Shown here piece after piece: positions 1 through 13,958 of a stretch of 64,000 nt of DNA. This DNA comes from Cellulomonas sp. (GTDB taxonomy: Bacteria; Actinomycetota; Actinomycetes; Actinomycetales; Cellulomonadaceae): the NCBI RefSeq assembly GCF_015234515.1, contig NZ_JADGMY010000010.1:186001-250000 (forward strand), given 5' to 3'. The notes under the pieces are model-generated. The model was not told the origin of the DNA. It saw only the letters and a list, made by a program, of their open reading frames with translations, and ran no database searches. The position numbers and the translations under genes were made by a program. Position 1 is the first letter of the stretch, and every line of letters begins with the position of its first letter.

Positions 1-3000
1 CCAGGCGAGCACCGAGCTCACCACGCCGAGCACGGCGGACCCCCACGCGTCGATGGCGCCGACCGCCACCACCAGGACGCTCGACGCGGCGCCGAGCACG
101 GCGTCCACGATCGGCAGCACGGTCCGGGACAGGGTCTGCGCCGCCGCGGCGAACCAGTCCGCCGCACCCTGGCTGACCTGGTCCCAGAGCTTCCCCAGAG
201 CCGCCCAGACCTCCGGCAGCCGGCCCAGCGCCTGCAGGAACGGCGCCAGCGGACTGGAGTCCCGCAGCCATCGCCACGCCGCCCGCAGCGCGTCCAGCAC
301 GGGCCGGGCGGCGTCGGTGATCGCCTGCCACAGCGCGTTGATGCCCTGCCGCAGCGCCTCGACCGGACCGATCGCCGGGTCGATTCCCAAGGCCGTCGCG
401 ATGTGCAGCCACGCCGTCGCCCCGATCTCGCCGAGGTCGTCGAGGACCTCGCTCACGGCCGGCTGGATGTCCTGCCACCACTGGTAGACCGGCGCGGCCA
501 CCCACCGGACGACGGCGAAGAAGTCGCTCAGACCGTTGATCTGGTCCTCGACGCCCTCGGCGGCCTGCCGCTGCAGGAACTGCTGGAGCTGGACGGCCAT
601 GGGGGACGCCAGCACCCGGTCCACGAAGCCCATGGCGTCCTGCAGGCTCTGCTGGAACGCCGCGCAGTCCAGCGCCTGCTGCTCCGGGCTCGCCTCGGGG
701 CGTGCGGCGCACATCGACTCGACCTCGAGGTCGGCCAGCATCGCGTCCAGTGCCGCGAGGCCCGTCGCCTCCATCGCTCGCTCGACCCAGCCGTCCAGTG
801 CCGCGGCGGTGCGGTCGACCGGCCCGGCCAGCCCCTCGTCCAGCAGCGACGCCAGGAGCGGGAACCGGGCGCGCAGGAAGGCCATCAGGCCGTTCGCCAG
901 CAGGTCGTCGACCGCTGCGCCGACCGCGCGGACGCCCGCACCCACCTCGTCGAGAAGACCGGTGACGGCCGTCGTGACGTCGGCGACGACGGCGTCGATG
1001 GACCGGTGGAGCCCGGCTGCCCAGGCGTCGATCTCACCTTGGACGCCGTCGAGGAACGTGTGGATCGACGTGCGGTACCGCTGCGCCAGCTCACCGAGCT
1101 CACCCGGGAGGTTGGCGGCGAGGACGTCGACCGCCGCGTGCAGCAGGCGGAAGGTGGTCGCGACCGCCTGCCGGGCGGCTTCCACCACGGCGTGGGCCAG
1201 TCGCGCCGCCGCGTCGAGCAGGGCGGTGATGGCCCGCCGGCACGCCGCCAGGAAGCTGTCGACCCACGCGACCAGACGCCCCACCTGCTCGCGGACCCAG
1301 TCCAGCCCGCGCTGGAACCATCCACGGTCGGCGGTCGCGGCCACCCGCGTCCGGGCCCGGCCGCGCGCGTCCTCCCACTGCCGGTCACCCTCCGCCTGGG
1401 CGTCGGTCGTGATCCGGGCGGCGCGGGCGAGCCCGTCGCGCTCGGTGCGGTCCGCATCCGCGGCGGCGCGCGTCGTGAGCTCGTCGACCCCCTGCTCGCG
1501 CTGGGCCAGCAGCGTCTCGCCCTCGCCCTGCCACGCGGTCCGCCGCTGCTGGACACCGGCCGTGGCACCGTCGCGGAGCCGGTCACGGTCCCGCCCGGCC
1601 GCCACGCACGCGTCGCGCACCTGGGTGTCGGCGGCGTCCAGTCGCTGCGCCACCTGCGCCCGCGCGTCCGGGTCGGACGGGACGGACTGCTCCACGGCCG
1701 CCAGCGGGCCGTCCTGGACGAGGACGACCTCATGGAGGGGGACGGCGCCGGCGTTCGCCGGCGTGGCCACCCGGTCCAGACGCGCAGGGTCCACCGCACC
1801 GACCACGTCGACGGTGGGCACCGGCAGACTCTCGAGCCGCAGGTCCAGACCCGCCGTCGGGTCCCGCTCCGGCTCGAGCCGGCGCTCGCCGAACCCCTCG
1901 TCCGTCGCGGTGCGGTGCTGCTGCTGGGCGGCGGCGGCACGCTCCCGGTACATGGCCGCGCTCGCGGACGGCACGGTGCCATCGGGCGTGGGAGGAGCGT
2001 CGGCACCAGGGCCGCCGCGGGTCTCGGGTGCGGACGCCGTCGTCGCGGGGGACTCGGTGCTCGTGATGCGCTGCTCGAGCTGCCTCTGGTGGCCGGCCCG
2101 CTCGCGCTGCTCGTCGGCCGAGAGCCCAGCGGTGTCCGGCGGGGGTGCACGCGCAGGAGCGGTGCCCACCTGGGCGCGGGCAGCCTCACGGGCGCGCGCC
2201 ACGGCGGTGGTGTCGGGTTCTGGCGCGCGAGGTGCCGGGACGTCCGGCACCGGTGTCGGTCGGGCGGTGCCGGACGGGGGACCCCGGGCCGGTGGGCTGG
2301 CAGCCCGGTCCGCGGCGACGGGTGTCCGCTGGGTGGGGACCACGTCGGCACACGGGCGGATCTCGTGCCCACCGGCGGTCGCTGCGGCGCCGTCCCACGT
2401 CGCCTGAGCACGGGCGACCACCTGGGCGAGCCGCTCGCGCCGGTCACGACCGGACCGCGCGGCGGTCGCGCGCCCGCCTGCCGGACCGGTCCGGCCCCGG
2501 TCGACCGCCGGCGTCCGGCCGTCGTCCTCTGCGGGTTCGGCCGGTCCGTCCGCCGACGCCGACGACTCACCGGAGGACGCGGGCGCGGCCTCGGGCCCGT
2601 CCGCCGACGCCGACGGCTCACCCGGGGACCCGGGCGCTGTCTCGGCGGCCTCGCCCGGCCGGCCCTCCTCCGTGCCCTGCGCGTCGGACTGCTCCGCCGC
2701 AGGAGCCTCCCCGGCGGACGTCGCGCGCGACGTGGACACGTCCGGGTCCGCCTCGGGCGGGGCCACCAGGTCCTCGGCGCGCGCCGTCTCCGCGGCCCCG
2801 ACCACCCCCCACGGCTGCGGTTCCGTGGCCACCTCGGGGTCCGGGAGCGGGAGCACGGCGCGGCGCAGCGCCAGGGCACCGGGCGACAACCGGGCCCGCA
2901 GGCGGACGAGCCCGGTGGCGTGCGCGGCCTGCTCGGCCTCGCGCTCGGCGGGGTGGTCCGCGGCGATCGGCGCCGGTGTGGACAGGACTGCCGGACCGCC

Positions 3001-3324
3001 CGCGCTGCCCGCGCCGGCCTGGACCACATGGGCCACCTCGTGCGCGACCGTCTGCGCGTCCGCGCCGGGGCCGAGCAGCACGGTGCTCCCCGACGCTGCG
3101 GCGCGCGCACCGAGAGCGTGGAGCAGCGAGCGGGCAACGGTGCCGTCGAACACCCGGACGGCAGACAGCGACGCACCGAACCGGCGTTCGAGGTCGGCGC
3201 GCCCGGGCAGGGCCCGCGCCGGCTCGCGCGCCGCTGCGGCCCAGCGCTCGCCCAGACCGACCGGCGCAGACGGCCTCGGCTGCGCGGGTCGACGCGGCTC
3301 AGGGACCGGGCGGGCGTGGGTCAT
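1..3324 (-). CDS. eCIS-associated DUF4157 (zincin-like) protein, C-terminus cut by window start
   Basis: At least 1108 residues are read without a stop from the ATG to the window edge. Residues 46-102 match the DUF4157 domain found beside contractile injection systems: an RFGASLSAVRV segment followed by HEVAHVVQ at 95-102, a zincin HExxH motif. Residues about 110-560 are a low-complexity stretch rich in Ala, Pro, Gly, Asp and Glu. From about residue 600 the chain is almost entirely predicted amphipathic helix, including segments like REQVGRLVAWVDSFLAAC. The start overlaps the preceding stop as ATGA, so translation is probably coupled. The family is a hallmark of eCIS loci, but its role (processing protease, cargo or scaffold) is not settled. 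The long helical tail could belong to a tape-measure-like or effector region; that is inference. The stop lies outside the window. Confidence 0.85.
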   Translation of the reverse strand, partial: MTHARPVPEPRRPAQPRPSAPVGLGERWAAAAREPARALPGRADLERRFGASLSAVRVFDGTVARSLLHALGARAAASGSTVLLGPGADAQTVAHEVAHVVQAGAGSAGGPAVLSTPAPIAADHPAEREAEQAAHATGLVRLRARLSPGALALRRAVLPLPDPEVATEPQPWGVVGAAETARAEDLVAPPEADPDVSTSRATSAGEAPAAEQSDAQGTEEGRPGEAAETAPGSPGEPSASADGPEAAPASSGESSASADGPAEPAEDDGRTPAVDRGRTGPAGGRATAARSGRDRRERLAQVVARAQATWDGAAATAGGHEIRPCADVVPTQRTPVAADRAASPPARGPPSGTARPTPVPDVPAPRAPEPDTTAVARAREAARAQVGTAPARAPPPDTAGLSADEQRERAGHQRQLEQRITSTESPATTASAPETRGGPGADAPPTPDGTVPSASAAMYRERAAAAQQQHRTATDEGFGERRLEPERDPTAGLDLRLESLPVPTVDVVGAVDPARLDRVATPANAGAVPLHEVVLVQDGPLAAVEQSVPSDPDARAQVAQRLDAADTQVRDACVAAGRDRDRLRDGATAGVQQRRTAWQGEGETLLAQREQGVDELTTRAAADADRTERDGLARAARITTDAQAEGDRQWEDARGRARTRVAATADRGWFQRGLDWVREQVGRLVAWVDSFLAACRRAITALLDAAARLAHAVVEAARQAVATTFRLLHAAVDVLAANLPGELGELAQRYRTSIHTFLDGVQGEIDAWAAGLHRSIDAVVADVTTAVTGLLDEVGAGVRAVGAAVDDLLANGLMAFLRARFPLLASLLDEGLAGPVDRTAAALDGWVERAMEATGLAALDAMLADLEVESMCAARPEASPEQQALDCAAFQQSLQDAMGFVDRVLASPMAVQLQQFLQRQAAEGVEDQINGLSDFFAVVRWVAAPVYQWWQDIQPAVSEVLDDLGEIGATAWLHIATALGIDPAIGPVEALRQGINALWQAITDAARPVLDALRAAWRWLRDSSPLAPFLQALGRLPEVWAALGKLWDQVSQGAADWFAAAAQTLSRTVLPIVDAVLGAASSVLVVAVGAIDAWGSAVLGVVSSVLAW

Positions 3325-3581
3325 GGCAGCCGCCGGTGCACAGCACGGGCGAGCTCGACGCCGAACAGCACGGGGTTCCCGTCCGGGCGGGCCCGCAACC
3401 GCGGCGACGACCCACCTCCGTCCGGACCGGCCTCGACCAGCCGGGTCAGCTCGCGCTCGAACGCCGCCACGACCGACCGGCGGCGCCCCGGCGGCACGTC
3501 GGTCAGGTCGAGCTCCCCGATCTCGATCACGACGTCCGCCTGCGGGTCGGCGACCCGCGACGCACGGGAGGTCAGCGCCAT
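3321..3581 (-). CDS. small eCIS-operon protein (86 aa)
   Basis: This is a short soluble protein with no signal peptide or membrane segment. The centre reads VVIEIGELDLTDVPPGRRR, followed by a helix (VVAAFERELTRLV). That strand-then-helix layout (a beta-strand ending in a Leu-rich motif, then an Arg-rich helix ending in ELxRLV) resembles small proteins I associate with eCIS operons beside the AAA+ ATPase. I have no functional name for it. The start overlaps the end of the ATPase gene by 10 bases, and the stop overlaps the DUF4157 start (ATGA), so it is translated as part of the operon. Being a real gene is well supported by the tight packing; the function is unknown. Confidence 0.75.
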   Translation of the reverse strand: MALTSRASRVADPQADVVIEIGELDLTDVPPGRRRSVVAAFERELTRLVEAGPDGGGSSPRLRARPDGNPVLFGVELARAVHRRLP

Positions 3582-5476
3582 CCGCGCACCTCCGCCGGGG
3601 TCAGCGACCGCCCGAGCTTGGCGTACTCGAGCTCGGCCGCGACGCGCAGCACCTCCATCGTCACGGGTCCTCCCGCATCGGCGGCGAGGAACGCCGCGTT
3701 GCGCGCGATGCTGCGGATGTTGCCGCCGGCGACCGCCAGGCGTGCGAGCAGCTGCGGCTGCAGGCCGTCGACGGGCGTCCGTGCGGGGAACGCGTGCCGC
3801 CAGATCTCCTCGCGCAGCGCCGGCTCAGGGAACGGGAACTCGACGACGAACGGGATCCGGCGCAGGAACGCCTCGTCGAGGTGGTCGCGGTGGTTCGTGG
3901 TCAGGATGGCCAGACCGCCGTAGGACTCCATGCGCTGCAGCAGGTAGCTGACCTCGATGTTGGCGTGCCGGTCGTGGCTGTCCCGGACCTCCGTGCGTTT
4001 GCCGAACAGTGCGTCGGCCTCGTCGAACAGCAGCACGGCGCCCGCCGACTCGGCGACGTCGAACACCCGGCGCAGGTTCTTCTCCGTCTCGCCGATGTAC
4101 TTGCTCACGACCGCGGACAGGTCGATGCGGAACAGGTCGAGCCGCAGCTCGCCCGCCAGCACCTCGGCCGCCATCGTCTTGCCGGTACCGCTCGGCCCGG
4201 CGAAGACGGCCGAGGTCCCCAGGCCGCGAGCGCCCGGGCGGTCGCCTGCGAAACCCCACTCGTGGTCGACGACGGCCTTGGCGCGGACCTGACCCGCCAG
4301 GGCCTGCAGCGCGACCCGGCTCTGCTCGGGCAGCACGAGGTCCGTCCAGGACGCGACGCAGTCCAGCCGTTGCGCCAGGTCCTCGAGCTGGGGGTGCGCC
4401 TGCTCGCGGGACGCAGCCCAGAGCAGCTCGCCGAGATCGGCTTCCGGCTGGTCGGCCAGAGCGGCGCGCGCTGCCGTCACGGTGTCGTCCAGCGCCACGG
4501 CGCCGAGGGGGAACCGGGTGACGATCTGCGCCAGCCGATCGGGCTCGGGCAGGCTGCCCAGGGCCGTGCGCCACTGCACGAGCCGCTCGGCATGCGAGGG
4601 GCGCGCGACGCGCAAGCGGGTCACGGCCTCCCCCGGCCGAGGGTCGGAGCCGTAGCTGACGACGGCGCCCGGCGCCCGGGAGACCAGGTCGGTCACCGCG
4701 GCGCGAGCCGACGGGTCCCCGGCCTGGAGCTCGACCGCGAGGGCGAGCGGCTGCAAGCGCGACTCCCGCCCCCACAGCACCACGAGCTCGTCCAACGCGT
4801 CCGGGTCGGCGGGCACCTCGGCCGACGACAGGCTGAGGACCTGCCGGCCGCGCCCGGCAGCCGCAGCCACCGCGAGCCCGTCGCTGGCGACGTCGCACCA
4901 CAGGTGCACGGGCCCGGCGCGCCCGGCGCGCCCGGCGCTCGAGCGTCCCGACCAGAGCTCGACGAGCGCCCGGGCGACCTCGGCGTGCCCGGCGGTCAGG
5001 ACACCGGTCCGGGGCACCACGTGCGCCCGACGTGCGAGCGCCGGCTCGAGGTACGCGTGCCCCATGAGCGCGTGCAGCACCCGCTCGGTCAGCAGGAGGG
5101 ACCGGTCGGTCAGGACGTCGCCCGGCCCGAGCTCGACCAGCCGGTGCGCCCGCAGCGGTGAGGTGGGCAGCAACGCGTGCCAGTCCGCACCGGGCAGGAT
5201 CGAGAGGGCCAGCCCGACCGTCGGCCAGGGCCGTGCGTCGCTGCCGTTGAGCGTGGCGAGCTCCAGCTCGACGCCCGGCTGCAGCTCGACGAGCGCGCCG
5301 AGCAGGAGGACCCCGCGCTCGAACGCCGTCAGCCCGAAGGCGGACGACACGGCGTCCAGCGACCCACCCGGAACGGGCTCGAGCAGCATGCCGCTCTCCG
5401 GGCGGTCACCACGCAGCAGCTTCTGCACGGCGTCCATCTGGGCGTCGAGCTCGTCCCGGGAGGTCTCGGTCGTCAT
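3572..5476 (-). CDS. eCIS AAA+ ATPase (Afp15/Pvc15-like)
   Basis: A 634-residue protein. The N-terminal 400 residues form a variable helical region. A classical AAA+ module follows: Walker A GPSGTGKT at 427-434, Walker B LLFDEAD at 482-488, a sensor-like ILTTNHRDHLDEAFLRR, and a C-terminal lid helix. The same two-part layout is seen in the ATPase encoded in Afp, PVC and Streptomyces-type injection systems. It is thought there to act in assembly or remodelling of the particle in the cytoplasm. The gene follows the DUF4255 gene with a 4-base gap and overlaps the next small gene, so it is inside the coupled operon. The ATG is the only start that preserves this spacing. The ATPase fold is certain; its exact task is inference from context. 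Confidence 0.9.
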   Translation of the reverse strand: MTTETSRDELDAQMDAVQKLLRGDRPESGMLLEPVPGGSLDAVSSAFGLTAFERGVLLLGALVELQPGVELELATLNGSDARPWPTVGLALSILPGADWHALLPTSPLRAHRLVELGPGDVLTDRSLLLTERVLHALMGHAYLEPALARRAHVVPRTGVLTAGHAEVARALVELWSGRSSAGRAGRAGPVHLWCDVASDGLAVAAAAGRGRQVLSLSSAEVPADPDALDELVVLWGRESRLQPLALAVELQAGDPSARAAVTDLVSRAPGAVVSYGSDPRPGEAVTRLRVARPSHAERLVQWRTALGSLPEPDRLAQIVTRFPLGAVALDDTVTAARAALADQPEADLGELLWAASREQAHPQLEDLAQRLDCVASWTDLVLPEQSRVALQALAGQVRAKAVVDHEWGFAGDRPGARGLGTSAVFAGPSGTGKTMAAEVLAGELRLDLFRIDLSAVVSKYIGETEKNLRRVFDVAESAGAVLLFDEADALFGKRTEVRDSHDRHANIEVSYLLQRMESYGGLAILTTNHRDHLDEAFLRRIPFVVEFPFPEPALREEIWRHAFPARTPVDGLQPQLLARLAVAGGNIRSIARNAAFLAADAGGPVTMEVLRVAAELEYAKLGRSLTPAEVRGWR

Positions 5477-5480
5477 GGCG

Positions 5481-6692
5481 TCAGGGCACCGTGACGGTGG
5501 GGCCGGTGATCGCCCCGGTGGCCGGGTCGACGTCGAGGAGGCTGAGGGCGCCGCCGATCGACAGCCGCACGAGGTGGGGACCGGACGGCAGGCCGCGGGT
5601 GGTCACCTCGACCACGCCGCCGACCACGGCGCCGTCGGACCACTCGGTGCGGGTGTCCCCCGGCCCGTTGAGCACCACGGTGAACGGCTCGTCCGCCGCC
5701 GGCACGGGTGTGACGGTCAGACGCAGGACCCGGGCGCCGGCACCCGGAGCGGCCCGGCTCGACGGGTTCGCCGGCTCGATGACGGGGACGAGGGCGACGG
5801 GGAACAGCCCGGACTCCGCAGCCGGGCGGGTGCTGCCGTCCGGCAGGGTCACCTCGTGCCGCACCTGGACGCCGGTGAGGCCCGGTCGCAGCGTGCCGCC
5901 GTCGACCGGGAGGCGGATCTCCGTGTCGCCCGCCGAAGGCGCAGGCAGCGCCCGCCCTCCGACGAGCACGGTGGTCCGGTCCCCGCGCAGGGACGTGCCC
6001 GTGACGACGAGATGCTCGCCGAACCGGACCACCGGCTGCGGGCGCGCGTCCGACCGCACGGCGCTGACCTGCGGCCGGCGCAGGGGGTACACGGTGAGGA
6101 CGGGCTCCCTCGTCACGGGCAGGGACGCACCGGTCGTCACCTGGGCGTCGAGCATCACGACGGCGGCACGGTAGGCCACCGTGAGCCGCGGTGCGGAGCG
6201 CGTGTTCATGCCCCAGAGCCGAGAGAGGTCCTCCAGGTCCAGCGGAACCATCGAGAGCCGGACGGACTCGACCTGGTTCGCCAGGTCCGAGCCGGCGAGG
6301 GCGTGGCCTGCCGGCAGGGCGGTCAGGAAGTCGGCGATCTCCGCCGGGGAGAGTCGCGGGACCTGGTTCAGGCTGCCGAGCACGAGACCTGCGAGGCGCT
6401 CCACGTCCTGGGCGGCCGGGGCACCGACGAAGCTGAGCGCGTACATGAGGTCGACCGCGAGGCGCGGTGCCTGGAGCACCGAGCCGTCCGTGTCGCGTTC
6501 CGGCATCCACTCGTTGCGCAGGTCGCCGTCGGGCATCACCTGGTACAGGTGGATGTACACGCCGGCGACCGCGTCCGGCTCCGGCGGTGCGGTGACGACG
6601 GTGAATCCCGCGAGCTCGGCGGCGTCGATGAGCCCCTGCACCCGGGCACGCAGCACCGCGCTCACGGTCGCGACCGCCAGGGAGTTGCTCAT
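5481..6692 (-). CDS. DUF4255 protein, eCIS sheath/tube terminator cap (Pvc16/Afp16-like)
   Basis: The protein has 403 residues. The N-terminal 200 or so (MSNSLAVATVSAVLRARVQG, then VYIHLYQVMPDGDLRNEWMP and a LAVDLMYALSF segment) match the DUF4255 family, which caps the tail end of contractile injection systems and controls sheath/tube length. A beta-rich C-terminal half follows, with an IPT/TIG-like Ig fold (FGEHLVVTGTSLRGDRTTVLV) and a second sandwich. Such extensions occur in actinobacterial members. The reading frame stays open upstream, but this ATG overlaps the previous stop as ATGA, as elsewhere in this operon, and is the one chosen. The protein should sit at the distal end of the particle. 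Confidence 0.85.
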   Translation of the reverse strand: MSNSLAVATVSAVLRARVQGLIDAAELAGFTVVTAPPEPDAVAGVYIHLYQVMPDGDLRNEWMPERDTDGSVLQAPRLAVDLMYALSFVGAPAAQDVERLAGLVLGSLNQVPRLSPAEIADFLTALPAGHALAGSDLANQVESVRLSMVPLDLEDLSRLWGMNTRSAPRLTVAYRAAVVMLDAQVTTGASLPVTREPVLTVYPLRRPQVSAVRSDARPQPVVRFGEHLVVTGTSLRGDRTTVLVGGRALPAPSAGDTEIRLPVDGGTLRPGLTGVQVRHEVTLPDGSTRPAAESGLFPVALVPVIEPANPSSRAAPGAGARVLRLTVTPVPAADEPFTVVLNGPGDTRTEWSDGAVVGGVVEVTTRGLPSGPHLVRLSIGGALSLLDVDPATGAITGPTVTVP

Positions 6693-7483
6693 CCGGACCC
6701 CCGCGTCCGGCTGGCGAGGTACTCCGCGAGCTCGCTGCCCCGAGCCGCGGCCGCCGACCCGGCGGAGGCCTGCGGCACCGACGACGAGCCGGCGCGGGCG
6801 GCTGGGGCGATCGGCGCGTCCGCCCGCACGACGATCCGGTCGATCCTGACGTGCACGGTCCTGCGCGCCGGGTCTCGACCGTCCGCACGGCGCGCGTCCG
6901 CCGCCGGTGCGGCCGAGGTCGGCGGGTGCAGCGGAACCGGTGCTGCAGCGGGCGCGGTCGTGCTGCGGTCCGGGCGTTCCGTCGGGGCCGGCACCGGCGG
7001 TGCCGGCCGTGCGACCGCAGGCGGGGCGGGCGGCCGTGCGGTCGCTGCCGGCGGGGGCGCTGCTGGTCGGCCCACCACGGTGGTGTGCACCTCGATCGGC
7101 ACGGGCGACACCGGCGCGGCTGCGGGCTTCGGGGACGGCGTGGACGACGGCGGCGGGATGCGCACCGGGGACGCCGACGCGTCGACGGGCTCCCGAGCGG
7201 GTGCGGACGGCTGGCGCGCTGCGGTCACGGGCTGCGCGGGCTGCGGGGCACCCGGCGGCGACGACTGCTCGACGTGCTGGACGTGGAGGGTGACCGGCGC
7301 CGGGTCGTGCTGCCGCTCGGTCGCCACGGGAGCCGGCGGCGCCGCGTCGACAGGCGGCGAGGGGAGCGCCCACACGACGTCAGCGGGCCGCACGAGGGGA
7401 TCGGCACCCGACGCACCGTCGGCGCGTGCGCCGTCTCCCGTCCCGGGGTCCAGCCGCGCCAGCAGGGCTCGCAGGTAGCTCAC
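6689..7483 (-). CDS. proline-rich eCIS-operon protein
   Basis: This 264-residue protein starts at a GTG that overlaps the previous stop (GTGA). A short N-terminal helix (SYLRALLARLDPG) is followed by about 150 residues of Pro/Ala/Thr-rich disordered sequence. A single conserved-looking beta motif (RTVHVRIDRIVVRA) and a short C-terminal helix ending SELAEYLASRTR complete it. The 'I-R-I-V-V-R-A' strand recurs, in my recollection, in small uncharacterised proteins of eCIS clusters next to the cap gene. No enzymatic motif, signal peptide or membrane segment is visible. It may be a flexible tether between baseplate or cap components; that is a guess. Frame and boundaries are secure from the overlaps on both sides. 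Confidence 0.7.
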   Translation of the reverse strand: MSYLRALLARLDPGTGDGARADGASGADPLVRPADVVWALPSPPVDAAPPAPVATERQHDPAPVTLHVQHVEQSSPPGAPQPAQPVTAARQPSAPAREPVDASASPVRIPPPSSTPSPKPAAAPVSPVPIEVHTTVVGRPAAPPPAATARPPAPPAVARPAPPVPAPTERPDRSTTAPAAAPVPLHPPTSAAPAADARRADGRDPARRTVHVRIDRIVVRADAPIAPAARAGSSSVPQASAGSAAAARGSELAEYLASRTRGSG

Positions 7484-8232
7484 GACCAGCCCGCCAGGTC
7501 CAGGTAGCTGCGGCGGCGGGTGGCCGGCAGCGAGAGGATGTCCCGCTCCGACCAGCCGTAGGTGCGGGCCAGCGCATCGACCTCCTGCAGCAGCCGCCGC
7601 GCGTTGACCTCGATCTCGCGCCACAGGAACGCCCCGACGTCGAACCGGGACGGCCAGGCGTGGCTGCACGCGGCGCAGCGCAGCTCGAGGGTGAGGTCTG
7701 CTGCCGGGTCGAGCCGAGCCAGCTCGGCGTCCAGGGCCTCGACCACCGGGGACGGGAGGTCCTGCACGGCACACCGGATCCCGGCTCGCTCCACCGACAC
7801 CACCGCGGCCTCGAGCAGGACCGCGGCCCGCAGGTCGTGGTCCGCCTGGGAGGCGACGCGCAGGTCCCGGCTACCCGGCAACCGGAACCGGACGTCCCAG
7901 TCCTCGACCCACAGCTCGTGGACCGCCGACCCGGCAGCCACGTCGTCCGCCACGGCCGTCCCCCCGGGAACCAGGTCGCGGACGTCCAGGGCGAACTCCA
8001 GCCCGTCCCCGCACCGAGGGCACGCCACGTAGCAGTCCGCGACGGCGCCGAAGGTCTGTCGACGCACCTCCAGCAGAGCGAGGTCGCGGACACCGAGGGG
8101 CGCCGCCGCCAGGTCCTCCACCGGCAGGCTGTCTGCCGCGGACCAGACGAGGAGGGCCCGGGTGAGCGCGTCGACACCGCGGCCCTGCTCCCAGACCGCG
8201 AGCAGCTGCTCCCCCGCCAGGCCCGCCGTCAC
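7480..8232 (-). CDS. four-cysteine (zinc-ribbon-like) baseplate-type protein of the eCIS
   Basis: A 250-residue protein with two CxxC pairs, C71/C74 (ACPRCG) and C186/C189 (RCAACS). They are separated by a beta-rich region (HELWVEDWDVRFRLPGSRDL), so the four cysteines could bind one zinc. The C-terminus reads LARTYGWSERDILSLP and ends in an Arg-rich SYLDL segment. That pattern resembles T4 gp26/gp51-type hub assembly proteins and phage tail chaperones found beside tube genes. It lies between the tube and cap genes, 6 bases after the tube stop, which fits a particle-assembly role. Family assignment beyond 'eCIS structural or assembly protein' is tentative. Confidence 0.7.
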   Translation of the reverse strand: MTAGLAGEQLLAVWEQGRGVDALTRALLVWSAADSLPVEDLAAAPLGVRDLALLEVRRQTFGAVADCYVACPRCGDGLEFALDVRDLVPGGTAVADDVAAGSAVHELWVEDWDVRFRLPGSRDLRVASQADHDLRAAVLLEAAVVSVERAGIRCAVQDLPSPVVEALDAELARLDPAADLTLELRCAACSHAWPSRFDVGAFLWREIEVNARRLLQEVDALARTYGWSERDILSLPATRRRSYLDLAGWS

Positions 8233-8238
8233 GCCAGG

Positions 8239-8763
8239 TCACTCCGGGACCGTGAAGCTGGGCTCGGTCGGTTCGAGCACGGCGACGTCGCGCAGCCAGC
8301 CCTCGTTCTCCAGCTTGATGGACTGGATCGCGACGGCGTTGCCGCTCGCGTCCAGCTCGGGGAAGGCCTGGTACTCGCTCACCCAGCACCGGTAGAGGTT
8401 GTAGGCGATGACCAGCTGGCCCGCCTCGTTGTACATCTCGATGGTGATGTCCTTGCGGAAGTCCTTCAGCGACACCTCGGCACCGAGGGCCGCCTCGTAG
8501 TTCCACACCTTGTTGGCCCACTGCTCGAACTCGCGGTCGTGGGTGACGCCACGCTCGAGGGTCACCGCCTCGAACTTCGACTGCCCCGGTGAGCGGAAGA
8601 CTGTGCTGACGTCACCGCCCGCGCGCACGTCGATGACCTCGGTGGTGCGCTTGAGCGCACCGACCTTGCTCACTCCGGCCACGTACCGGCCGTCCCACTT
8701 CACCCGGAACTTGAAGTTCTTGTACGGGTCGAATCGGTTGGTGTTGACGGTGAACTGGACCAT
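8239..8763 (-). CDS. eCIS inner tube protein (T4 gp19-like, Afp1/Pvc1)
   Basis: The protein has 174 residues, the usual size for the family. The features of the gp19/Hcp-like tube fold are all there: FKFRVKWDGRYVAGVSKVGAL near the N-terminus, TTEVIDVRAGGD, FEAVTLERGVTHDREFEQW, and a C-terminal IQSIKLENEGW strand. These subunits stack as hexameric rings inside the contractile sheath and are driven into the target on firing. The gene is 7 bases downstream of the second sheath gene, the standard sheath-tube order, with a GAGG-like ribosome site just before the ATG. Only one tube gene is visible in the window; PVC and Afp carry two. Confidence 0.93.
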   Translation of the reverse strand: MVQFTVNTNRFDPYKNFKFRVKWDGRYVAGVSKVGALKRTTEVIDVRAGGDVSTVFRSPGQSKFEAVTLERGVTHDREFEQWANKVWNYEAALGAEVSLKDFRKDITIEMYNEAGQLVIAYNLYRCWVSEYQAFPELDASGNAVAIQSIKLENEGWLRDVAVLEPTEPSFTVPE

Positions 8764-8770
8764 GGGATCC

Positions 8771-10966
8771 TCACTGGCCGGCCTGGGCGGCTTGCTGCTG
8801 GAGCCTGATGATGACGAACTCGGCGGGCCTGAGCGGCGCGAAGCCGATCAGGACGTTGACGACACCGCGCTGGATGTCACCGTCGGTGGTGGTCTCGTCG
8901 TCGCACTTGACCAGGTACGCCTCCTGCGCCGACGCACCCGCGAACGCCCCCTGACGGAACAGCCCGTGCATGAAGGAGCCCATGCTCATCCGGAGCTGCG
9001 ACCACAGCGCATGGCCGTTCGGCTCGAAGACGGCCCACCGGCTGCCGCGCATCAGGCTCTCCTCCAGGTACAGGGCGAGCCGCCGGACGGGCACGTACTT
9101 CCAGTCCGACGCCTGCACGTCGGCTCCGTTGAGGGTGCGGGCGCCCCACACGACCCGGCCGTAGACCGGGAAGGCGCGCAGCACGTTGACGCCCAGCCGG
9201 TTCAGCTCGCCGTGCTCGGTGTCCCCGACCCGCACCGCCAGCTCGGGGACACCGCGCAACGTCGCGTCGATCCCCGCGGGCGCCTTCCAGACTCCCCGCT
9301 GCGCGTCGGTCCGCGCGAGCACGCCGGCCACCACGCCGCAGGGTGGGAACTCGGCGAGCCTGCTCTCCTGCAACGGGTCGGGCACCCGCACGCGCGGGAA
9401 GTACAACGCGGCGTTGTCGCTGCGCGTCGCGAACGTGGCAGCGTCGGTCACGGCCGCCGCCGGGGTGGCCCACTCCACCGGCGGGTCGAGCAGGAGGAAC
9501 GCGCGGCGACGCTCGGCGAGGGCCACCGCCTGCGACCAGAGCGCGAGGTGACCGGCGTCCTGCGTCGACCAGGACTCGAGCGGCACGCACAGCAGGTTGA
9601 CGATGTCGGCCTCGAGCAGTGCCTGCATCCCGGTGCGACCGTCGGCGCTCCCCGACAGGTCCTCCGTGAGTCGCGGCGGTCCCCCGTCCAGCCCGCCGAC
9701 GAGCGGCACCGCGCCCTCGGCTGTCACCGGCGTCGTCGCGACGCGTGTCGCGACGAGCACGGCGAGCTGGGACGAGCGAGCGAGGACGCCGCCGAGCCAT
9801 CGAGGGGCGAGCGGGTCCGCCGACACGCTGTAGTGCACCTCGGAGGTCAGGACCCGGCCCGTGTCGTCGGTCTCGGTGAGCGTGAGGTGGAACGTGCCCG
9901 GCTCCGCCTCGACGGAGCCGACCTGCGCCCGGAGCCCGTTGCCCCAGGTGCCGGGCGACGCAGCCTCCAGGTCGAGGACCGTCGATGCCAGGGTGAGCAC
10001 GTGGGCGTCGTCGACGCTCGTGCTGCGCGCCGTGCCGTTCGGCGGCGTCGCGGCGGGAGCGGTGCCGACCACCTCGGCGAGGGCGAGACCCGTTCCCGTG
10101 CGCGCCGCTGCGATGGTCGCGGCGTAGTCGTCGTCCACGTCGAGCCCGACGATGTCCACCCGTGCCTCGTTGCCGTCGGGGCTCAGGACCGCGTCGCCGC
10201 CGTCCACGGCAGCCAGCTCGAGGTGGAAGGTGCCGGCAGCCGCATCCGAGGAGGACACGACCGCGCGCAACCGGGCGAACCCGGGCAGCGCGCGTGCCGC
10301 CGCCGTCGCGCGGAGCACCAGGCCCAGGCCGATCGTTGCCTGGGCGGCGACGGCCCGCTCACCCAGCGTGAGGACGTGCACCCCCGCGGCGGTCCGTGTC
10401 GTGCGGTAGCTGCCCTCGGGTGGCACACCGGTCGACGGGTCACCCACGAGCTCCACCAGAGCGGTGCCTGCGACCACGATGCCACCGATGGTGCCGGACG
10501 GGTCGGCGGCGAGGTCCACGGTGTCACTTCCGCTGACGTCGTTCCCGTTGTCCGTCAGCACTGTGCCGGCCGCGTCCTGGGCAGCGACCGTCAGGGTGAA
10601 CGTGCGTGCCCCGGCGTCGGCGTCGGCGACAGTGACGCCCAGGTGGTCGAACCCGGCCAACCCCTCGGCGGCGGGTGTGGCGCGCAGCACCATGGCGTCA
10701 GCGTTGACCACCCGGACGACGAGCGCCTGGCTCCCACCGTTGAGGAAGAAGTGGCGCACCACCTGCCCCATGACGCTCCGGCTCCACAGCGGCCCGAACG
10801 TCGCCTCGTACTGCGTCCAGCTGCTGATCGAGGTAGCAGCGTCGACCGGGCCCCGACGCGCGGTGCCGACGAAGGCGGTGACCGACGTCGACACCCCGGT
10901 GACTGCGCGGCTCCCGCTGGGCAGCTCGAGCGTGTAGACGCCCGGGGCCGTCGTCAGCATGCTCAT
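8771..10966 (-). CDS. eCIS contractile sheath protein with extra duplicated domain
   Basis: This 731-residue protein is clearly a phage-type tail sheath. The N-terminus reads TTAPGVYTLELPSGSRAVTG and the C-terminal core KYVPVRRLALYLEESLMRG, FEPNGHALWSQLR, then PLRPAEFVIIRLQQQ. It is longer than the 510-residue sheath encoded upstream because of an insertion at about residues 90-330 made of two related blocks (see the repeat entry). The rest aligns with the other sheath almost end to end. In eCIS, two or three sheath paralogues share the particle, some forming the ring next to the baseplate. The insertion should lie on the outer surface by analogy with decorated phage sheaths. The ATG follows an AAGGGA ribosome site. 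Confidence 0.92.
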   Translation of the reverse strand: MSMLTTAPGVYTLELPSGSRAVTGVSTSVTAFVGTARRGPVDAATSISSWTQYEATFGPLWSRSVMGQVVRHFFLNGGSQALVVRVVNADAMVLRATPAAEGLAGFDHLGVTVADADAGARTFTLTVAAQDAAGTVLTDNGNDVSGSDTVDLAADPSGTIGGIVVAGTALVELVGDPSTGVPPEGSYRTTRTAAGVHVLTLGERAVAAQATIGLGLVLRATAAARALPGFARLRAVVSSSDAAAGTFHLELAAVDGGDAVLSPDGNEARVDIVGLDVDDDYAATIAAARTGTGLALAEVVGTAPAATPPNGTARSTSVDDAHVLTLASTVLDLEAASPGTWGNGLRAQVGSVEAEPGTFHLTLTETDDTGRVLTSEVHYSVSADPLAPRWLGGVLARSSQLAVLVATRVATTPVTAEGAVPLVGGLDGGPPRLTEDLSGSADGRTGMQALLEADIVNLLCVPLESWSTQDAGHLALWSQAVALAERRRAFLLLDPPVEWATPAAAVTDAATFATRSDNAALYFPRVRVPDPLQESRLAEFPPCGVVAGVLARTDAQRGVWKAPAGIDATLRGVPELAVRVGDTEHGELNRLGVNVLRAFPVYGRVVWGARTLNGADVQASDWKYVPVRRLALYLEESLMRGSRWAVFEPNGHALWSQLRMSMGSFMHGLFRQGAFAGASAQEAYLVKCDDETTTDGDIQRGVVNVLIGFAPLRPAEFVIIRLQQQAAQAGQ
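9977..10693 (-). repeat. tandem domain duplication inside the longer sheath protein
   Basis: Two blocks of roughly 115 residues follow each other in the sheath, at residues 92-205 and 216-330. Both begin (M/L)VLRAT, have GF..L..V, then GTFxL or RTFTL strands followed by AA..D, a V/AVLxxDGN turn, a (V/L)V.G..P..PPxG segment, and end in HVLTL. The shorter sheath has nothing between its N-terminal domain and the AAADPGSWGDRLR segment, where this protein has AASPGTWGNGLR. The insertion site is therefore well defined. Divergence between copies suggests an old duplication. Confidence 0.8.
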
Positions 10967-11009
10967 GCGCTGTTCCCTTCAGGACGACGACCCTGGACGG
11001 TGGTCCGGC

Positions 11010-12542
11010 TCAGGTGGCCGACTGGCCAGCCATCTGCTGGAACGTAAGGATCACGAACTCGGCCGGCCGCAGCGGCGCGAAGCCGACGACCACGTTGACC
11101 ACCCCGACGGCGGCGTCCGCAGGGGTCGTCGTCGTGGCGTCGCACCGGACCAGGTACGCCTCGCTCGGCGTGGTGCCGAAGAAGGCCCCCTTGCGGAAGA
11201 GGTCCTGCATGAACCCGGTCACGGACGCCCGCAGCTGGCCCCACAGCGCGTGGTCGTTGGGCTCGAACACCGCCCACCGCAGGCCGCGGACCAGCGACTC
11301 CTCGATGTGCAGGGCCGTCCGCCGTACCGGGAGGTACTTCCACTCGGAGGCCATGACGTCGGCACCCCGACCGGTGCGGGCGCCCCAGACGACCGGACCG
11401 ACGACGCTCAGCTCGCGCAGCGCGTTGACGCCACGCGGGTTGAGCAGGCCGCTGTCGTCGTCGGTCAAGGTGCGCTCGAGGCCGGCGAGCCCGCGCAGGG
11501 TGGCCTCGGTGCCGGCGGCCGCCTTCCAGAACCCGCGAGCGGCGTCGGTCCGGGCGATCACGCCCGCCACGGCTCCCGAAGGTGCGAACGGCCGGCTCGC
11601 GTTCTGCTGCAGCGGATCGGCCGCCATCACGCGAGGGAACGTGAACACCGAGTTGTTGCTGCGGAACGCGTCCATCCCGCCCACGAGATCCGCGGCGTCC
11701 GCCGTCCTCGTCCAGCTGTCAGGCGGGTCCACGAGAAGCACCGCACGGCGGCGCTCGCAGAAGGCCAGCGCGGCGGCCCACGTCGCTGCGCTCGTCGGCC
11801 GGTCCCGCGCGATGGGCGGCACGCTCATCAGGTTGACCAAGTCCGCCTGGTCGAGCCGGCCGATCGCCGCCTCGAAGGCCGCGTCCGTGGCCTGCGCGAC
11901 GGAGCCGTCGGAGCCACCTCCGAAGGGCAGCCTCGCCCCGGCCGCCGGTCGAGCAGCCGGGACAGCTGTGGCACGGATGAGCGCAGACTGCTGCGCGAGC
12001 ACCGTGTGGACGTAGCGGGGGGACAACGGGTCGACCGACACATGCGTGAAGAACTCGCGGGCGACCACCGCCTGTTCGTAGCCTCGAAGGACCTCCACCG
12101 CCGGGTCGATCTCCTCGACAGTGAGGTGGAACGCGTCTGGCCCCGACACCGCCGTGACACTGCCGGCGACACCGTGGTCGACGCTGACCCGGAGCCGGTC
12201 GCCCCAGGAGCCGGGGTCGGCGGCGGCGAGCCGCAGTCCACCGGCCCCGCCTAGGCCGTGGGTCGCGGTCGCAGCTCCAGCGGCGACGCGTGAGACGAGG
12301 ACGCGACCTCCACCGTTGACGAAGAAGTGATGGACGGCATAGCCGAGCTCGGACTCCGCCCACAAGCCGCCGCAGCGGCGCTCGAAGTCCGGCCAGCTCG
12401 CGCAGTCCAACGGCACGTCGACCGACCCACGCCGCGTGCGTCCGACCATGGCGGTGATCGACGTCGCGACGCCCGTGAGGGTACGGGTCCCGCTCGGGAC
12501 CTCCTCGACGAAGACGCCCGGAGTCGCCGTGCTGACCGGCAT
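11010..12542 (-). CDS. eCIS contractile sheath protein (first gene of operon)
   Basis: A 510-residue tail sheath protein with the family N-terminus (TATPGVFVEEVPSGTRTLTG) and the C-terminal polymerisation core: KYLPVRRTALHIEESLVRG, FEPNDHALWGQLRASVTGF and PLRPAEFVILTFQQM. It is the compact paralogue of the next gene and lacks that gene's extra domain. It leads the operon. The ATG follows a GGGGGCGAGG stretch that can serve as ribosome site, and no related gene lies upstream on this strand. The promoter must be in the following 600-base gap, but I see no clear -35/-10 pair. Sheath identity is firm; which sheath forms the bulk of the tube is unknown. Confidence 0.93.
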   Translation of the reverse strand: MPVSTATPGVFVEEVPSGTRTLTGVATSITAMVGRTRRGSVDVPLDCASWPDFERRCGGLWAESELGYAVHHFFVNGGGRVLVSRVAAGAATATHGLGGAGGLRLAAADPGSWGDRLRVSVDHGVAGSVTAVSGPDAFHLTVEEIDPAVEVLRGYEQAVVAREFFTHVSVDPLSPRYVHTVLAQQSALIRATAVPAARPAAGARLPFGGGSDGSVAQATDAAFEAAIGRLDQADLVNLMSVPPIARDRPTSAATWAAALAFCERRRAVLLVDPPDSWTRTADAADLVGGMDAFRSNNSVFTFPRVMAADPLQQNASRPFAPSGAVAGVIARTDAARGFWKAAAGTEATLRGLAGLERTLTDDDSGLLNPRGVNALRELSVVGPVVWGARTGRGADVMASEWKYLPVRRTALHIEESLVRGLRWAVFEPNDHALWGQLRASVTGFMQDLFRKGAFFGTTPSEAYLVRCDATTTTPADAAVGVVNVVVGFAPLRPAEFVILTFQQMAGQSAT

Positions 12543-13121: not shown

Positions 13122-13169
13122 GCAGTCTTCCAAACTGGCTACGCGGGTTCGATTCCCGTCGTCCGCTCC
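13122..13169 (+). pseudogene. 3' half of tRNA-Gly(TCC); candidate attachment site of an integrated island
   Basis: The sequence gives an anticodon arm with loop CTTCCAA (anticodon TCC at 13129-13131; four of five stem pairs form). A CTAC variable loop follows, then a complete T arm (GCGGG, TTCGATT, CCCGT), the 3' acceptor strand CGTCCGC and TCC. The 5' acceptor partner (GCGGACG) and a D arm are absent: upstream bases do not fold. Integrases of many islands use tRNA 3' ends, leaving an intact tRNA at one end and such a 3' copy at the other. With the tRNA on the plus strand, the copy marks the right end of an element lying to the left, which is where the eCIS operon is. Not a functional tRNA. 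Confidence 0.7.
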
Positions 13170-13184
13170 GAGGGTGAACGCACC

Positions 13185-13640: not shown

Positions 13641-13884
13641 CGCCCTCTCCCGTCGTCCGGTGCTCGTGGGGACGACTCCGACGCTAGGAGCCGCGGCGGC
13701 GGCGGCGCTTCTCGGATCCTGACCGATGCGGGGGCGTCGTGGCGGGACGCGGACGGCCGCCACGTGCTCGGCCACCACCGGCTCGAGCGCCTCGTCCCCG
13801 CGCGCGTCCCTGCACGCGTGTGCGGCACTGAGGACTGACCTCGGCGCGCGGCACCGGTGCCGGCGACCACCTGGACGCGCTGGG

Positions 13885-13958
13885 TCGGGGTGGTCGGATT
13901 CGAACCGGCGACCTTCCGCTCCCAAAGCGGACGCGCTACCAACCTGCGCCACACCCCG
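13885..13958 (-). tRNA. tRNA-Pro(TGG)
   Basis: On the minus strand a full cloverleaf reads CGGGGTG acceptor, D arm GCGC..GCGC, anticodon stem TCCGC/GCGGA with loop TTTGGGA (anticodon TGG) and a T arm with GGTTCGAATCC. It closes with CACCCCG and discriminator A. No CCA is encoded (the next bases are CCC), so it must be added after transcription. Confidence 0.95.

Follow-up and report, generated by a model that had tools for sequence, protein, structure and literature searches.

Gene content of the locus

The DNA analyzed here, hereafter the window, is a stretch of 64,000 nucleotides from a Cellulomonas genome (C10:186001-250000 of G000, a 4.21-Mb draft in 38 contigs), and its left edge cuts through a locus that encodes a complete contractile injection system (CIS). 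The longest gene product of this cluster, a protein of 1981 amino acids (aa), is its likely cargo. Gene calling by codon-position G+C, which covered C10:147001-186000 and C10:180001-200000 and, as gene calls alone, window 16000-64000, places, read right to left along the minus strand, sheath A, sheath B, the tube, a gp26-like protein, a Pro-rich protein, the Pvc16 cap, an AAA+ ATPase, p86 and the cargo, followed on the same strand by a 262-aa orphan, the tube initiator, a LysM-like protein, the hub, the spike, a PAAR-like protein, gp25, two baseplate J-like proteins, tail-I and a DUF6519 protein. Neighboring genes are spaced by -10 to +43 bases throughout, except for 90 bases after the 262-aa orphan, and all 20 genes are open frames with no internal stop. 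Sheath, tube, baseplate (gp25, J), spike and hub, AAA+ ATPase and Pvc16 cap, by which CISs and extracellular CISs (eCISs) are recognized, are found in this single cluster, the remainder of which consists of the cargo and of small or Pro-rich genes to which no function is assigned. Except for the 262-aa gene, which is treated below, the genes are as follows.

Window 11010-12542, minus strand: sheath A, 510 aa; PF17482 1.2e-9 and PF04984 1.7e-7, above cut-off
Window 8771-10966, minus strand: sheath B, 731 aa; PF04984 9.6e-11 and PF17482 1.3e-9, above cut-off
Window 8239-8763, minus strand: tail tube gp19, 174 aa; PF06841 2e-43
Window 7480-8232, minus strand: gp26/T4 baseplate-like protein with CxxC pairs, 250 aa; PF12322 22.9 bits, below the cut-off of 24.5
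Window 6689-7483, minus strand: Pro/Ala-rich protein, 264 aa; no family match
Window 5481-6692, minus strand: Pvc16/DUF4255 cap (Pvc16_N), 403 aa; PF14065 4.9e-24
Window 3572-5476, minus strand: AAA+ ATPase, 634 aa; PF00004 2.1e-26 and PF22977 2.8e-10
Window 3321-3581, minus strand: p86, 86 aa, between ATPase and cargo; no family match
Window 3324 down to window -2621 (C10:183379), minus strand: cargo, 1981 aa; eCIS_core, trunk and tip
Left of the window, minus strand: tube initiator, 211 aa; relatives and chain 9rce_H at 3.3e-5
Left of the window, minus strand: LysM-like protein, 94 aa; 18.9 bits, below the cut-off of 22
Left of the window, minus strand: hub, 381 aa; chain 9rce_F, called VgrG, 3.6e-6 (profile)
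Left of the window, minus strand: spike, 165 aa; Phage_base_V 6.3e-21
Left of the window, minus strand: PAAR-like protein, 110 aa; position and relatives
Left of the window, minus strand: gp25, 119 aa; GPW_gp25 4.6e-13
Left of the window, minus strand: baseplate J-like 1, 843 aa; 12.7 bits, below the cut-off of 21.1
Left of the window, minus strand: baseplate J-like 2, 834 aa; Baseplate_J 4.1e-7
Left of the window, minus strand: tail-I, 738 aa; Tail_P2_I 1.9e-4
Left of the window, minus strand: DUF6519 protein, 877 aa; DUF6519 4.5e-36

Pfam matches were scored against family cut-offs, below which fall the first J-like, the LysM-like and the gp26-like proteins as well as the CIS_tube match of the tube initiator (13.8 bits, cut-off 27); CIS_tube is found in three of the five aligned tube-initiator members, ours not among them. 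Sheath B, which in the alignment is longer than sheath A by an inserted stretch of ~200 aa, matches PDB sheaths including Pvc2 and Afp3, and the tube protein is 66-73% identical to five relatives. Homologues of the gp26-like protein occupy the equivalent position in relatives, several of which also hold a protein of similar size where the 264-aa Pro/Ala-rich protein lies. The latter has no match in Pfam, NCBIfam or PHROGs, and neither has p86, a counterpart of which stands at the equivalent position in genome G182 (53% identity over 35 residues). Likewise, the PAAR-like protein has no match among Pfam, PHROGs or solved structures; its counterparts at the equivalent position in four loci are 41-50% identical. 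The AAA+ ATPase presumably plays a role like that of Pvc15/Afp15.

A preliminary description of the window had read the two sheaths, the tube, the DUF4255 cap, the AAA+ ATPase and the DUF4157 protein as one coupled minus-strand operon, and both the Pfam matches and the gaps of -10 to +43 bases within the window bear this out. Its DUF4157 gene retains the family and the coupling, but the copy in the window is incomplete, the whole gene running to C10:183379 and encoding 1981 aa. The leftward extension and hidden Markov model searches that it had suggested returned matches to PF04984, PF06841, PF14065, PF13699 and baseplate families, and the spike, PAAR, gp25, baseplate J and LysM genes that it had predicted to the left of position 1 were found within 16.7 kb, in the same orientation and on the same contig. 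No head, terminase, integrase, capsid or portal family was matched by any of the 20 cluster genes in Pfam and other family searches (a further low-scoring 102-aa frame, C10:168705-169013, was not searched singly), and neither phage head genes nor a complete prophage was found on the left. Prophage identity is rejected on the absence of head, terminase and integrase family matches. The actinobacterial origin given in that description agrees with the G+C content and with the relatives. Its reading as a particle system is supported, and although no integrase was found inside, the block bears marks of integration, namely a 50-bp tRNA-Gly repeat at both ends.

The cargo, its tip and the gene downstream

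The window holds only the N-terminal 1108 residues of the cargo (positions 1-3324), that is, eCIS_core/DUF4157 and most of the trunk. The eCIS_core domain (PF13699) spans residues 42-105 (E 8.5e-15 to 2.1e-14), and its HExxH residues H95, E96 and H99 are invariant in all ten aligned relatives. Hydropathy peaks at residues 1069-1106, 1164-1182, 1268-1300 and 1553-1571, and at E<=0.1 the cargo matches seven PHROGs families, every one a tape measure family (best 7.7e-10). The preliminary description had advised looking for cargo-like toxins beyond the DUF4157 gene; going further, we find that the likely cargo is this gene itself, with a C-terminal, nuclease-like toxin tip.

A trunk homologue search, which scored the 8000 candidates with the most words in common, returned the protein itself and eight others; P0002, another giant eCIS_core protein, was not among them although its trunk aligns. 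The trunk match P0007 (Pseudonocardia) is a fragment without tip, and in the best 100-residue trunk window six of P0008-P0014 share 54-65 identical residues with the cargo and P0014 shares 45. Profile comparison (one pair) also aligned the trunk family with the cargos of G182, G546 and G572 (2301, 2130 and 2237 aa), which occupy the same slot in the same gene order of Tme-like loci and whose genus we take to be Streptomyces; the probability was 98.8 over 370 columns, both sides looking helical and composition-biased. The richest 250 residues contain 16% R and 6.8% K in our cargo, and 30% and 9.6% in that of G182.

The tip comprises cargo residues ~1771-1981 and lies to the left of the window edge. 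A search with residues 1700-1981 recovered the protein itself and four others, P0002 and three Rhs proteins, with aligned tip identities of 59% for P0002, 42% for P0003 and P0004, and 36% for P0005. Positions E82, RPD113, E/D122-V-K124, Q136 and Q140 are kept in all five, and we assign this motif order (PD...(D/E)xK) to the PD-(D/E)XK nuclease superfamily. The tip looks like a PD-(D/E)XK-type nuclease, and its activity is predicted. Searches of genome contigs with patterns from three sequences gave 138 fitting stretches, none of them confirmed; none was confirmed on viral contigs with a single pattern, and a plasmid search found none.

The tip is the exchangeable part of the cargo, as in polymorphic toxins. 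Within our own trunk family, a constant carrier with exchanged tips is seen in P0008-P0014, where the trunk is kept and the tip is different: over residues 1700-1981, all seven share only 7-21 identical residues with the cargo per window of <=100 residues, which equals background, unlike P0002 with 42-54. Similarly, the G546 and G572 cargos share 46-90 residues per 100 over their first 1900; in the final three windows the counts are 16, 24 and 7.

Directly downstream of the cargo, on the same strand and before the tube initiator, lies the 262-aa orphan gene. Each of the five trunk-type loci examined (our own, G182, G546, G572 and G757) has a same-strand gene after the cargo:

Own locus: 262 aa
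G182: 191 aa
G546: 407 aa, overlapping the cargo stop
G572: 173 aa overlapping the cargo stop, then 219 aa
G757: 201 aa, then more

Those of G546 and G572 are less certain, because they were absent from the initial gene calls and were found at a second look. The post-cargo genes of the five loci are not convincingly alike, the best comparison (G572 219-aa against G757 288-aa) reaching 0.006, and where the slot protein is of another kind, as in the three loci G182_C2, G258 and G029, the tube initiator comes immediately after it. By its position, the 262-aa gene is a candidate immunity gene. A structural role in the CIS is not favored, as no gene in the other mapped loci matches it, nor does any other post-cargo gene, and a HEAT-like label given by eye was set aside, the sole such match among solved structures having an E of 0.96. 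We found no description of tip-specific immunity genes for Tme-type cargos in open-licence PubMed Central (PMC) literature.

Probable insertion at tRNA-Gly, and related loci

Four features mark the borders of the block:

C10:168596-168668: tRNA-Gly (tcc)
C10:168622-168671: left repeat copy, overlapping the intact tRNA-Gly
Window 13123-13172 (C10:199123-199172), plus strand: right, attR-like repeat, 50 bp identical to the tRNA-Gly 3' end
Window 13883-13958 (C10:199883-199958), minus strand: tRNA-Pro (tgg), in the host flank

The block is best explained as a horizontally acquired island inserted at the tRNA-Gly gene, given the repeats and the island-free relatives. The 50-bp repeat has zero mismatches and exactly two copies within C10:147-250 kb. 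In three of the four same-genus genomes compared (G003, G756 and G754), tRNA-Gly and tRNA-Pro lie close together with no CIS, while the stretch of G011 examined showed no tRNA-Gly; the DNA of G754 from ~0.2 kb past tRNA-Gly is colinear with ours to the right of the second repeat (82%). Because G003 and G756 carry other small genes there, the tRNA-Gly/tRNA-Pro interval looks like an insertion hot spot. Of the usual marks of tRNA islands, bordering repeats of the tRNA 3' end and island-free relatives are present, and no integrase of its own was found: of the five PF00589 matches in the genome, three of them above cut-off, none falls between the repeats (serine recombinases were not searched genome-wide). 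No comparable tRNA repeat was found in 12 other mapped CIS loci, several of which have a short flank; the CIS locus of G732 has two repeats, of 18 and 23 bases. By names read from the sequence, the left host flank carries trigger factor and Clp genes and the right one a 311-aa cysK; the gene between the second repeat and tRNA-Pro is presumably DUF1801-like. Integration of an eCIS between tRNA genes was noted earlier (PMC8213781).

A scan with the tube protein confirmed at least 553 related loci, the best 80 of which, from many phyla, were used for comparison. Among these, tandem sheath genes occur in one of the 69 loci with sufficient upstream DNA and the own-type trunk in one of 80, in both cases L105, which lies in the metagenome-assembled genome G757 (JANSYI010000013.1). 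An HExxH-type open frame, by a loose pattern, follows the ATPase in 56 of the 80, many of the other 24 ending before that site. In a tree of 28 sheaths, our sheath A groups with that of G757 (100/99), our sheath B with its sheath B (100/98) and all four together (94/91), so that the sheath genes appear to have been duplicated before the two lineages parted. To judge from such comparisons, the system with tandem sheaths and this trunk seems to form a sublineage; no description of a tandem-sheath Tme lineage was found in open-licence PMC literature. Sheath matches occur in 29 of 296 genomes of the phylum and in 39 of 81 of the genus, our own included, and the CIS loci of five of the other 38 sheath-positive genomes of the genus contain neither tandem sheaths nor the own-type trunk. 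The trunk region was matched (E<=1e-3) in 5/394 genomes of the class, ours included, the other four matches being weak (20-39% over parts).

Further observations concern the architecture of these loci. In G757:C63:32001-88000 (L146-L148), the genes from tube initiator to DUF6519 form a block in inverted orientation to that of the sheaths, and several additional genes separate the two. Our own genome holds a second CIS of a different class (C16:about 32812-62309). It has a tube, spike and baseplate J of its own and an eCIS_core protein of 1020 aa, and in the C-terminal part its sheath shows 42% identity to sheath B. G182 carries two CISs of our tube clade (L028-L031), one each on contigs C1 (9.5 Mb) and C2 (223 kb), the latter perhaps a plasmid. 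In Chloroflexus (L058 and L074), the slot is filled by HExxH-type open frames of ~1440-1470 aa, and a match in the genome of L058 weakly resembles our trunk (31% over about 218 residues).

Proposed mechanism and comparison with known systems

The reading that we consider probable is that a horizontally acquired, Tme-type syringe delivers a trunk-fused nuclease, probably against bacteria, with an immunity protein encoded next to it. It builds on the gene content and architecture, the homology of the tip to Rhs ends, the exchange of tips among relatives and the island repeats, all of which are observed. By analogy with Tme for the first functional steps (PMC11126660), the operon would build a sheathed tube on a baseplate, inside which the 1981-aa DUF4157 protein would be loaded, probably in place of the tape measure, since no other protein of the locus was seen as a tape-measure candidate. 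Contraction of the sheath would expel the cargo, its hydrophobic trunk may enter the target membrane, the PD-(D/E)XK-type tip would then reach and cut nucleic acid, and the 262-aa protein would shield the producer from the tip. We infer loading, membrane entry, nuclease activity and immunity, along with a mainly antibacterial target, bacteria being more likely than self or eukaryotes.

Several observations weigh against this reading. The reversed cargo segment 585-1123 also reaches tape-measure families (7.6e-6), so that the tape-measure similarity of the trunk is partly compositional and its value as proof is weakened. The cationic stretch is less pronounced than the 32% R and 8.8% K reported for Tme (PMC11126660). 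The nuclease fold of the tip is deduced from motifs and Rhs homology, the tip having no relevant match in solved structures, Pfam, NCBIfam or PHROGs. Since the 262-aa protein has no homologue at E<=0.01 among 8000 candidates scored, nor in 57 other genomes (35 of the genus), it is position that suggests its immunity role. Finally, the Tme of Streptomyces davawensis acts on the producer's own biology and not against rivals (PMC11126660).

The last point bears on an alternative in which the particle acts in or at the envelope of its producer, where the nuclease would tune cell death, development or the release of DNA and the 262-aa protein would serve as a chaperone or adaptor. The closest characterized relative, S. 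davawensis Tme, works in this manner (PMC11126660), as do the SLP effectors (PMC13277306). However, in the five trunk-type loci the tip and the downstream gene both vary from one locus to the next, a pattern more in keeping with immunity than with a chaperone. Moreover, the tip is common to Rhs proteins, usually held to be interbacterial weapons, and we regard self-directed action as unlikely. Homology of the tip to Rhs also argues against an anti-eukaryotic particle like Afp, PVC or MACs, with a nuclease acting on a host or predator cell, for which a candidate immunity gene would moreover serve little purpose; that neither the tail-I nor the DUF6519 protein shows a tail-fiber domain in Pfam is a weak argument, as no special fiber search was made. 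Even though earlier characterized eCISs act between bacteria and invertebrates (PMC8213781) and a MACs nuclease effector is reported to kill eukaryotic cell lines, we hold this to be improbable. The lack of an integrase between the repeats and the absence of the block from three close relatives would also suit an island in decay, no longer producing particles and with its genes as passengers, but 20 open frames with no internal stop and an apparently intact coupling (gaps of -10 to +90 bases) make decay highly improbable.

Beyond the delivery of a nuclease against bacteria, a wider generalization can be offered tentatively, and we are somewhat inclined to doubt it: a CIS tape measure would have turned into a polymorphic toxin, in which interchangeable tips, some of them traded with Rhs proteins and each paired with an immunity gene of its own, sit on a constant DUF4157-tape-measure trunk, both in the tandem-sheath sublineage that our bacterium shares with a distant one and in Streptomyces-type Tme loci, the whole syringe being an integrase-free, tRNA-inserting cassette. 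That most antibacterial eCIS toxins have no immunity gene next to them has been called an intriguing mystery (PMC8213781). If the post-cargo genes are tip-specific immunity genes, this question would become directly testable for a whole group of CISs, and bacteria would be indicated as targets. The differing tips also suggest that C-terminal exchange, proposed as an application by the authors of the Tme study (PMC11126660), already occurs in nature.

Other systems share part of this design. In the S. lividans SLP, placed in another CIS clade (PMC11126660), Sle1/Sle2 likewise combine a tape-measure-related effector with a variable C-terminus and a tie to a DUF4157 protein; DUF4157 (Sle2) is separate there, whereas DUF4157, trunk and tip form one protein here (PMC13277306). 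The effector-immunity pair RS14790/RS14785 of M. eburnea, in which the protective gene also lies just downstream, is an earlier case of immunity next to CIS effectors related to tape measures (PMC13277306). DUF4157-linked eCIS toxins resemble our cargo in their N-terminal DUF4157, C-terminal toxin and linkers occasionally >1000 residues, but most antibacterial ones have no immunity gene (PMC8213781), whereas the five trunk-type loci each have a candidate. The accessible passages of a machine-learning prediction of eCIS toxins (PMC11297309) have no bearing on our tip. As for P0003-P0005, their C-terminal tips are 36-42% identical to ours, but the carrier is an Rhs protein there and a CIS cargo trunk here.

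The closest comparison is with the Tme group, defined by relative open reading frame length, N-terminal DUF4157 and synteny (PMC11126660), all three of which are found at our locus, with one gene between cargo and tube initiator. As with S. davawensis Tme (BN159_7576), the largest gene, which sits shortly before the tube initiator, spike and tip genes, encodes an N-terminal DUF4157, a long trunk that includes hydrophobic stretches, and a nuclease-like domain at its C-terminus (PMC11126660). Traits reported for Tme beyond this definition include a tape-measure-related trunk, coiled-coil segments and a strongly cationic segment after the hydrophobic region (PMC11126660); our trunk and the Tme-like trunks are alike by profile comparison only. 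Self-protection from Tme is explained by low activity, sequestration and multinuclearity, and the terms "immunity", "antitoxin" and "7577" do not occur in the main text (PMC11126660). The Tme tip is EndA-like with DRGH and H-N-N motifs (PMC11126660), whereas ours is of the PD-(D/E)XK type common to Rhs proteins. Our locus differs from the Tme type in this tip, in the tandem of two sheath genes and in its tRNA-Gly setting.

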